Assembly (NCBI RefSeq): GCF_002072105.2
Contig: NZ_MTBC01000007.1
Location: forward strand, 62,001 to 126,000
DNA length: 64,000 nt
Origin: Croceivirga radicis
GTDB taxonomy: Bacteria; Bacteroidota; Bacteroidia; Flavobacteriales; Flavobacteriaceae
Reading direction: 5' to 3'
Part shown: piece after piece, positions 6,610 through 53,440 of the stretch
Layout: each line of letters starts with the position of its first letter
Position numbering within the stretch: the stretch's first letter is position 1
The notes under the pieces: model-generated
What the model was told of the DNA's origin: nothing
The model's input: the letters and a program-made list of their open reading frames with translations, nothing else
The model's database searches: none
Translations under genes and position numbers: made by a program

Positions 6610-7222
6610 ATCCCTCTTATATATTGTCCTATTTATTGCACTAACTTTTTCGGCGAACGCCCAAACAGAAAAAGATAGCGTAGTGGTTTCTACACCTACT
6701 GATTCTATTACTAACGCTGTAGCAGAAAAAGGTATTGTTGTAGAAGAAGTATTTGTAGCACAAAAAGAGATTAACCCCCTTGCCCCTGCAAAAGCAGCTT
6801 TTTATTCTGCTGTGGTTCCTGGTCTTGGACAGATTTACAATAAAAAATATTGGAAAGCTCCAATAGCATGGGGTCTAATAGGCTGGGGTGTTTATAACTA
6901 TTCTACCAATAACACCAATTACAAAAGATTTAGAACCGCTTTTAAACGCAGAAAAGCAGGTTTTAGTGATGATGAGTTCATTGCAAATGTTTCTGATTCT
7001 GGATTGGAAGACGCGCAAGAAAGAGCCCAAGAAAACAGAGATATTTGGTTATTGGCCACTATAGGCTTTTACGCTTTAAATATTATTGACGCCAATGTAG
7101 ACGCGCACCTAAAACAGTTTAATGTTAGCGACCAATTGTCTTATGATATAAGTCCTTATTTAGAGGCCAACCCCCTTACAGGAGAACCCAATTACGGCGT
7201 AGCCTTACTTATAAAATTTTAA
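6602..7222 (+). CDS. DUF5683 domain-containing membrane/secreted protein
   Basis: A 206-residue protein that starts at a GTG overlapping the end of parB by 8 bases. It has an N-terminal signal peptide (hydrophobic run ending ANAQ), a low-complexity linker and then the DUF5683 core: SAVVPGLGQIYNKKYWKAP, a hydrophobic stretch, and a second hydrophobic segment near residues 155-170. PGLGQIYN-type motifs are shared by small membrane proteins of unknown function. Its fixed place between parB and dapB suggests an envelope role; no activity can be assigned. Confidence 0.75.
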   Translation: MNKSLLYIVLFIALTFSANAQTEKDSVVVSTPTDSITNAVAEKGIVVEEVFVAQKEINPLAPAKAAFYSAVVPGLGQIYNKKYWKAPIAWGLIGWGVYNYSTNNTNYKRFRTAFKRRKAGFSDDEFIANVSDSGLEDAQERAQENRDIWLLATIGFYALNIIDANVDAHLKQFNVSDQLSYDISPYLEANPLTGEPNYGVALLIKF

Positions 7223-51050: not shown

Positions 51051-52622
51051 TTATTTGGCTACGTTTACAGAGCGTGTTTCTCGTATAACCGTAATTTTAA
51101 CCTGACCGGGATAAGTCATATCCGTTTGGATTTTTTGCGAAATATTAAACGATAATTCAGCAGCCTGATCATCATTTACCTTTTCACTCTCTACAATTAC
51201 ACGTAGTTCCCTACCTGCTTGTATCGCATACGCCTTCTGTACACCGGTAAATCCAAAAGCAATATCTTCTAAATCTTTAAGACGTTGAATATAAGAATCC
51301 AGTACTTGTCTTCTAGCGCCAGGTCTAGCGCCACTAATGGCATCACAAACCTGAACAATTGGCGAAATCAAGCTTGTCATTTCTATTTCATCATGGTGGG
51401 CTCCAATTGCGTTACACACTTCTTTTTTCTCTCCATATTTTTCTGCCCACTGCATTCCTAAAATAGCATGTGGTGTTTCAATCTCTACCTCTGTATTAGG
51501 TACTTTACCTATATCATGTAATAACCCTGCACGTTTGGCCAATTTAGGATTAACACCCAACTCTGCCGCCATGACACCGCATAATTTAGCTACTTCCCTA
51601 GAATGCTGCAGTAAGTTTTGTCCGTAAGAAGACCTATATTTCATTCGTCCTACAGCTTTTATCAATTCTGGATGTAAGCCATGAATACCCAAATCGATAA
51701 CCGTACGCTTACCAATTTCTGCTATCTCTTCGTTAATTTGCTTTTCGGTCTTTTTTACAACCTCTTCAATTCTTGCAGGGTGTATACGACCATCTGTAAC
51801 CAGTTTATGTAATGATAATCTGGCTATTTCTCTCCGTACCGAATCAAAACAGGATAAAATTATGGCTTCTGGAGTATCATCTACTATAATTTCTACCCCT
51901 GTAGCTGCCTCAATCGCGCGAATGTTTCTACCTTCCCTACCTATGATCCTTCCTTTGACGTCATCGGATTCTAGATTAAATACTGAAACACAGTTTTCTA
52001 CGGCTTCTTCGGTACCTATGCGTTGAATGGTATTGATAACTATTTTCCTTGCTTCTTGCTGTGCTGTAAGTTTAGCTTCTTCTAACGTGCTTTGAACAAA
52101 TGCCATAGCATCTGTTTTAGCTGTTTCTTTCAAAGACTCTAACAACTGCCCTTTTGCCTCGTCTGCAGATAGCCCAGAAATAACTTCTAGTTGCTGCACT
52201 TGACTACGGTGTAGTTTTTCTACTTCGGCACGCTTTTTCTCTAAGATGTCGCTTTTATATTCTACCTCTTTAAGCTCTGCTTCTAATTGTTCTTTTAGAC
52301 GTTTATTCTTGGCTAGCTCACTTCCAACCTGAGATTCTTTGTCCCTAGTGCGTTTTTCCGCTTCGGCAATTTTTTTGTCTTTATTAATGATAACCTTTTC
52401 ATGCTCTGCCTTTAGCTCTAAAAACTTCTCTTTGGCCTGAAAAATCTTATCCTTCTTAATGTTTTCGCCTTCTTTCTTGGCATCTTCTATAATTTTGCCC
52501 GCTTCTTTTTTAGCATTACCTAAAATTTGGGTTGCCTTGCCTTTTTCTAACATTTTGGCAATACCAAAACCTATGGCTAAGCCAACCACCGCAGCTATTA
52601 TTCCAATTAGTGTTATATCCAT
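51051..52622 (-). CDS. rny: Ribonuclease Y
   Basis: A 523-residue membrane-anchored endoribonuclease. An N-terminal membrane helix (about 3-20) leads to a long coiled coil (about 25-205), then a KH domain ([21 protein letters not shown]) and an HD domain ([13 protein letters not shown], with [10 protein letters not shown]). It starts mRNA decay at the inner membrane. A structured RNA (52641-52808) lies directly upstream on the same strand. The stop codon is two bases inside the shared terminator region's right edge. Confidence 0.96.
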
Positions 52623-52640: not shown

Positions 52641-52808
52641 AAAAAAAAACCCACATTGGACGGAAGTTTTGTACAAACTCCTTTAAACAGGTTTAGGGTT
52701 AACAGATTGATCAAGGATCCTTTCTAGAAGGCCTGCTTTTACAACCTAAACTCACCCTTTTTAATTGTATTAGTGTTGAGTTTGTCAAAAAATAAGTACC
52801 AATGTGGG
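52641..52808 (-). ncRNA. ssrS: 6S RNA (ssrS-like), between zapA and rny
   Basis: The 214-base gap between zapA and rny folds into a long rod on the minus strand. A closing 10-bp stem pairs CCCACATTGG (52808-52799) with CCAATGTGGG (52659-52650), followed by nine T. Next comes an arm of 8 + 5 bp (52778-52790 with 52667-52680, one bulged base), a large asymmetric open region, a 9-bp stem (52743-52751 with 52691-52700, one bulged G), and a terminal hairpin (AAGG/CCTT with AGG/CCT, 52714-52734). A rod with a central bubble is the 6S RNA shape, which mimics open promoter DNA to hold RNA polymerase. Position after zapA matches ssrS in proteobacteria, and a flavobacterial 6S class is known. No covariance search was run. 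Confidence 0.72.
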
Positions 52809-52836
52809 TAGTAACTGTAATTTTATTTTAAAGAAC

Positions 52837-53133
52837 TTATTCTACAGTTAGTTTAGAGCGAACCAGCTGGTCCAAGGCACGTAACCTTTCCCTAGCTTCC
52901 TTTACACTCTCTGACTCCTGTATATCTCCTTGCTCAATTTTAGAAGCAAACTGTAAAGCACACATAGCAAGCACGTCTTGCTTATCTCTAACAGCATAGT
53001 TCTGCTCAAATTTTTTGGCCAACATATCAATGTTTTTAGCCGCTCTGCGCAGACCTTCTTCTTGTTTTGGATCTATGGTTAAGGGGTAAACCCTATCCGC
53101 AATCGAAAGCTTAATTTTTAGCTTCTCTCCCAT
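52837..53133 (-). CDS. zapA: Cell division protein ZapA
   Basis: A 98-residue ZapA family protein that bundles FtsZ filaments. The KIKLSIADRVYPLTIDPKQEEGLRRAAKNID segment (start to about residue 35) and the C-terminal coiled-coil helix match the family. It follows a small coiled-coil gene by 16 bases in the same direction and precedes the 6S-like RNA. Length is typical. Confidence 0.9.
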   Translation of the reverse strand: MGEKLKIKLSIADRVYPLTIDPKQEEGLRRAAKNIDMLAKKFEQNYAVRDKQDVLAMCALQFASKIEQGDIQESESVKEARERLRALDQLVRSKLTVE

Positions 53134-53149
53134 ATAATTAATAGTGCAC

Positions 53150-53440
53150 TTATTCTGCCAATTGCGCTATACAGCTATCAATTTCCCTAATTAGTGCGTT
53201 TATCTTGAGCTTTGCCTCTGTTTTGTTTGTATTACCACCCACCATTGTACTTGCCAGCTTTAGGGACTTATATTTTTCTTCCCATTCTAGCAAAACCTCC
53301 TTATCTACTTGTCGTTGACTTTTTAGAACCTCTAAATTGCGCTCCAATTCTTCATTGGTTTGCTTAAGCAGTTCTAACTTATGTAAAAGCTTGCTTATTT
53401 TGTTTTCCAAAGAATCAACTAAATCAACAAGTTCGGCCAT
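53150..53440 (-). CDS. Small coiled-coil protein preceding zapA
   Basis: A 96-residue almost fully alpha-helical protein with heptad-like L, E and K spacing (KISKLLHKLELLKQTNEELERN). It has no signal peptide. It is co-directional with zapA and starts the operon. A ZapB-like role (a coiled-coil partner of ZapA) fits the position and form, but sequence similarity cannot be seen by eye. Confidence 0.65.
   Translation of the reverse strand: MAELVDLVDSLENKISKLLHKLELLKQTNEELERNLEVLKSQRQVDKEVLLEWEEKYKSLKLASTMVGGNTNKTEAKLKINALIREIDSCIAQLAE

Follow-up and report, generated by a model that had tools for sequence, protein, structure and literature searches.

The genes for the cell division protein ZapA and for RNase Y lie 214 nt apart in Croceivirga radicis, and the gap between them raises two questions: what it encodes, and how its product is made. 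The locus was analysed within a window of 64,000 nt (contig NZ_MTBC01000007.1, positions 62,001 to 126,000), to which all coordinates refer. Both genes are on the minus strand, zapA at 52837..53133 (PF05164, E 6.4e-18) and rny at 51051..52622 (PF12072, KH_1 and HD domains). Upstream of zapA is a gene for a ZapB-like coiled-coil protein (53150..53440, minus; PF06005, E 4e-4, below the cut-off), and in the deltaproteobacterial contig L158 the gene at the homologous position matches PF06005 above the cut-off. Among the fetched loci, the closest named relative is Flagellimonas pacifica (RNase Y 89% and ZapA 85% identical).

A 6S RNA gene of the 6S-Flavo class

The gap contains no ORF of at least 60 aa, and a coding reading was dropped. 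It holds instead a rod of 159 nt on the minus strand, closed by a perfect stem between CCCACATTGG (52808-52799) and CCAATGTGGG (52659-52650). An 11th pair, A-U at 52809/52649, is possible and extends the two strands to ACCCACATTGG (52799..52809) and CCAATGTGGGT (52649..52659). Nine T residues (52641..52649) form with this stem an intrinsic terminator, and the T-tract is kept in all aligned Flavobacteriales copies. With its T-tract the RNA gene spans 52641..52811 (minus). The first-pass annotation had described an ORF-free gap of 214 nt containing such a rod, with a perfect 10-bp stem and nine T, and its coordinates are exact.

Covariance models place this RNA in a known class. RF01685 (6S-Flavo) matches with 110.3 bits against a curated gathering cut-off of 85 (Infernal), the matched core (52675..52781, minus) covering the full length of the model (positions 1-108). 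With RF00013, the canonical 6S model, the window yields nothing up to an E-value of 10, and the RNA is therefore filed under the 6S-Flavo class. The expectation that 6S models would recognize the RNA thus held for 6S-Flavo and failed for RF00013. Two other matches in the window, to Thr_leader (below its cut-off) and to Bacteroidales-1 (RF01693; 23.4 bits against a cut-off of 60), overlap the 6S-Flavo match and were rejected. 6S-Flavo is a single-copy gene in this genome, and is present in 291 of 300 Flavobacteriaceae genomes and in 231 of 237 genera. Knowledge of the class goes back to 2010 (Weinberg et al. 2010, PMC2864571), RNA-seq has revealed 6S RNA in Flavobacterium psychrophilum (PMC9723704), and product RNAs (pRNAs) have been reported in Bacteroides thetaiotaomicron (PMC7366714).

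The structure itself is more than chance. For the minus strand, the folding energy is -47.2 kcal/mol, compared with -32.5 +/- 3.6 in dinucleotide shuffles (z -4.1; 0/200). The plus strand likewise folds well (z -3.4), and the RNA is assigned to the minus strand by its covariance-model match, its T-tract and its neighbouring genes. Alignment of 28 Flavobacteriaceae copies gives a consensus of 40 pairs. Of all cells, 98.4% pair, and 20 of the pairs show double compensatory changes; such changes occupy 121 cells versus 38.9 in shuffles (0/500 shuffles reach the observed value), and no slid register of the consensus attains the observed values. The outer closing stem, which the Rfam model does not include, itself covaries, with 99.4% of cells paired and double changes in six of its 11 pairs, as do inner helices distant from the terminator. 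Weeksellaceae and Flavobacteriaceae have 19 pairs in common, nine of them with double changes. Fold and consensus together describe the general architecture of a 6S RNA, namely a long rod (~160-200 nt) with a closing stem, a large central bubble and a terminal stem-loop. The abundance of compensatory changes in relatives, together with the RF01685 match, upholds the initial identification as 6S RNA (ssrS).

The central bubble is conserved in sequence. At its edge, GAGTTTG (52674..52680, minus) pairs with CAAACTC (52778-52784), and both AACTCAAC and GAGTTT are invariant in 36 sequences. In the bubble's conserved 3' strand, CCTAAACCTGTT (52686..52697, minus), which is unpaired, the positions holding C, A, T and G do not vary among the same number of sequences. 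The opposite side, AAACTCAAC (52775..52783, minus), comprises the final pairs below the bubble and the start of the unpaired 5' strand. By analogy with the start site in E. coli, pRNA synthesis is predicted to begin here as GUUGAGUUUGUC..., with the template starting near 52775 and being copied towards 52784 and beyond. The unpaired AAAnC(U/C)UG of the 3' strand sits roughly where the -7 element of Bacteroidota promoters, TAnnTTTG, would be expected, and about 4/6 fixed positions agree in most copies. This likeness is no more than a hint that the strand may imitate that element.

These features also bear on another reading, in which the element only terminates or attenuates transcription between zapA and rny, as a large intrinsic structure with no function in trans. 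The closing stem and T-tract do stand immediately before rny, and three Sphingobacteriaceae loci (L156, L161 and L170) retain stem and T-tract without a recognizable 6S core. However, a terminator does not need the sequence-invariant bubble strands, nor does it account for the match to a curated 6S class or for covariation in inner helices far from the terminator, and this explanation is considered highly improbable. Elsewhere, 6S RNA sequesters the housekeeping holoenzyme of RNA polymerase by mimicking an open promoter, and the enzyme is freed by pRNA synthesis. The RNA of C. radicis would act likewise: the long rod with its central bubble would imitate an open promoter and bind the housekeeping holoenzyme, holding polymerase off promoters as growth slows, until synthesis of a short pRNA, with the 5' strand of the bubble as template, releases the RNA. 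We assign a probability of about 0.93 to the joint reading that this stretch is a 6S RNA gene (ssrS) and that its product acts through holoenzyme sequestration and pRNA release, with polymerase binding and pRNA as predicted properties.

Gene order around 6S RNA across lineages

The position of the gene ties this RNA to 6S RNAs of other lineages. The Flavobacteriaceae and Weeksellaceae loci examined, which were selected by their 6S matches, have the order zapA-RNA-rny. The same slot is found in Sphingobacteriaceae, in some Bacteroidales and in other classes of the phylum. In these other classes, RF00013 gives matches of 28-42 bits, under its cut-off of 46.4; all 30 fetched loci with such matches adjoin rny, and zapA was confirmed by Pfam in each of the five tested. 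Among Deltaproteobacteria, two contigs (L158 and L215) carry a canonical 6S RNA (108.2 and 99.8 bits) between Pfam-confirmed zapA and rny genes, with ZapB additionally upstream in L158, and in two more (L205 and L206) 6S lies upstream of rny, with zapA not identified. In L158 and L215, the zapA-6S-rny block is followed after a few kb by the start of a 16S rRNA gene on the same strand (at 7068 and 5814, respectively). The E. coli order is zapA-ssrS-fau. The statement that ssrS follows zapA in proteobacteria, on which the first-pass annotation had relied, is thus borne out in both E. coli and Deltaproteobacteria, and the conserved position behind zapA is found here as for ssrS. Since the slot is common to Bacteroidota and Deltaproteobacteria, and zapA-ssrS are linked in E. 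coli, the view that 6S-Flavo is a positional ortholog of ordinary 6S RNA is well supported.

The same comparison addresses the proposal that the RNA is a cis-regulatory leader of rny, either riboswitch-like or a target of RNase Y autoregulation, rather than 6S. It would agree with the RNA immediately preceding rny in these lineages. It is at odds with the match to a curated 6S class, with the Bacteroidales locus L093, where the equivalent RNA lies elsewhere and adjoins dnaJ, and with E. coli, where ssrS precedes fau and not rny; we regard it as very unlikely. L093 is one exception to the conserved order, and loci of several families without a recognized 6S in the slot are others. A sub-threshold RF01685 match (38 bits) at L066/L104 lies outside any zapA-rny slot; this element (L104:5001-5149, minus) belongs to a genome from a different family of the class and could be either a 6S RNA that has moved or a chance match.

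The Sphingobacteriaceae slot contains a 6S RNA that Rfam does not recognize. An independent sample of loci, picked by rny alone, yielded five loci (L071-L075) placed in this family because their ZapA resembles that of named Pedobacter and Sphingobacterium loci. Their zapA-rny gaps contain a rod, a T-tract and a bubble strand AACTTAAC(G/A)CTT or near it. Rfam models found no 6S match in the zapA-rny gaps of the Sphingobacteriaceae loci scanned. A covariance model built from Flavobacteriales only nevertheless recovered matches in the slot, at 36.1 bits in L072 and 30-40 bits in L105-L109, with weak matches (11-18 bits) at the same place in L071 and L073-L075. Across 80 named loci picked by rny, those matches of this model that have E up to 1 lie in the stretch before rny, some with an antisense echo. 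Fifteen aligned Sphingobacteriaceae copies have compensatory changes of their own (nine pairs; 21 cells versus 7.9). The class with the bubble strand AACTTAAC(G/A)CTTCAATAT was seen in the zapA-rny gaps of L071-L075, L105-L109, L149, L157, L166, L186 and L191. In the gaps of L156, L161 and L170, a boxA element is kept alongside closing stem and T-tract while the recognizable 6S core is gone, apparently a 6S RNA decaying to a bare terminator. In L107, a Flavo-1 RNA (RF01705, 58 bits; 572-663) lies upstream of the zapA-6S-rny block.

A boxA-like element and the route of expression

Directly after the zapA stop codon begins a boxA-like element, GTTCTTTAAAA (52826..52836, minus), which matches the consensus GYTCTTTAANA perfectly. 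This consensus describes the boxA of rRNA leaders and suhB; boxA is the antitermination site for NusB/S10, and non-coding RNAs were by its own statement outside the scope of the study concerned (PMC5725501). In 54 of 61 Flavobacteriaceae loci, the shorter motif GTTC[AT]TT occurs at most 40 nt past the zapA stop, where shuffles predict 0.42; among other windows, taken as a control, 25 of 4317 have it. The full consensus is matched perfectly in 30/61 of these loci and within one mismatch in 47/61 (control 35/6141, 0.6%), counts drawn from kin that do not represent independent events. A related motif, GTTCATTGGAC, lies at -108 in the 16S leader of the genome itself, and a 16S leader from another family (L222) has ACGTTCTTTAAAATA at -84, identical to the element that precedes 6S in several relatives. 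The element combines a consensus match with likeness to the boxA of rRNA leaders in the order.

The element is also present in Sphingobacteriaceae, some Bacteroidales and one Ignavibacteria locus. Across Flavobacteriaceae, Sphingobacteriaceae and the named loci, 81 of 101 slots that contain 6S have a boxA, compared with two of 39 slots called as lacking 6S; one of those two, L142, may contain an unrecognized 6S RNA. It was found in none of seven Weeksellaceae loci and in one of 30 loci of other classes, and none was seen in Deltaproteobacteria; it is therefore not essential to 6S as such. As a genome-unique marker, the boxA 15-mer proved not specific (of nine exact copies, two are at 6S and one at a 16S leader), leaving position and conservation as the argument. 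The genome encodes both rho and nusB. Judged from its sequence, the element may function as a boxA, with NusB/S10 binding and Nus dependence.

How 6S RNA is transcribed bears on what this element does. The promoter box TAnnTTTG is not enriched near the 5' end of the RNA (one of 61 loci versus four expected), and a standard promoter just upstream was rejected. Because no housekeeping promoter is visible, Nus-assisted read-through from zapA followed by processing is preferred. Co-transcription of 6S with zapA, as the first-pass annotation had suggested, is plausible. The 6S RNA would most likely be made within the transcript of the zapB-like gene and zapA: translation would stop at the end of zapA, boxA directly behind it would load NusB/S10, and the polymerase so loaded would cross the untranslated 6S gene without termination by Rho. 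Closing stem and T-tract would then form the 3' end, and cleavage near the closing stem would produce the 5' end. We place boxA-assisted read-through from zapA, as deduced from sequence, at roughly even odds.

The main rival concerns expression only and holds that 6S is transcribed from its own, non-standard promoter, the boxA-like element being part of that promoter or having another role. Its own promoters drive ssrS in E. coli, and in Flavobacteriaceae the element stands 15-22 nt upstream of the stem, a promoter-like spacing. Yet the element is tied to the zapA stop, lying 0-5 nt from it in most loci, whereas its distance to the stem reaches ~115 nt in Sphingobacteriaceae (L074); the scarcity of TAnnTTTG and the presence of the same motif in 16S leaders also count against a promoter, and this alternative is judged less likely. 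BoxA-assisted read-through leads to a broader proposal, for and against which the balance is about equal: in Flavobacteriaceae, Sphingobacteriaceae and some other Bacteroidota, 6S synthesis may have come under the rRNA antitermination machinery, with the boxA at the end of zapA loading the Nus complex, and the zapA-6S linkage of Gammaproteobacteria, Deltaproteobacteria and Bacteroidota may rank among the oldest small-RNA neighbourhoods that have been conserved.

Relation to known systems and significance

The RNA is of a known kind, an ordinary member of a textbook class of regulators. Its sequence and core structure are those of 6S-Flavo (RF01685), with a score that exceeds the curated cut-off; that model comprises only 108 core positions, and the full rod of ~160 nt, including closing stem and terminator, is defined here with support from covariation. 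Bacteroidales-1, for which '6S-Bacteroidales RNA' has been suggested, has the same overall rod and the bubble edges AAACUCA and GGAGUUU, and the Flavobacteriales model finds it at full length with 24-36 bits; it differs in scoring far below its own cut-off in the window and in the L093 gene lying beside dnaJ, outside the slot. With canonical 6S/SsrS (RF00013), the RNA shares the place behind zapA, the rod with a central bubble, and the slot occupied in Deltaproteobacteria and other Bacteroidota classes, but it lacks an RF00013 match, and the downstream neighbour in E. coli is fau. The boxA-like element resembles those of rRNA leaders and suhB in its perfect consensus match and in being carried by rRNA leaders of the order, but differs in following a stop codon and preceding a small RNA.

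What is new is the ancient, widely conserved gene order and the rRNA-type signal usually found just before 6S. No description of the phylum-wide slot, the Sphingobacteriaceae class or the boxA was found in the literature searched, which left aside the survey of Wehner et al. 2014, and no paper in it treats boxA, NusB and 6S RNA together. Positional orthology ties the odd 6S classes of Bacteroidota to ordinary 6S RNA, and the slot tells where to seek 6S in lineages that Rfam misses, such as Sphingobacteriaceae and many Bacteroidales. The boxA raises the possibility, open to experiment, that the rRNA antitermination system is connected to the RNA that turns polymerase off: if so, the 6S RNA that silences transcription would be made with the same help as rRNA.
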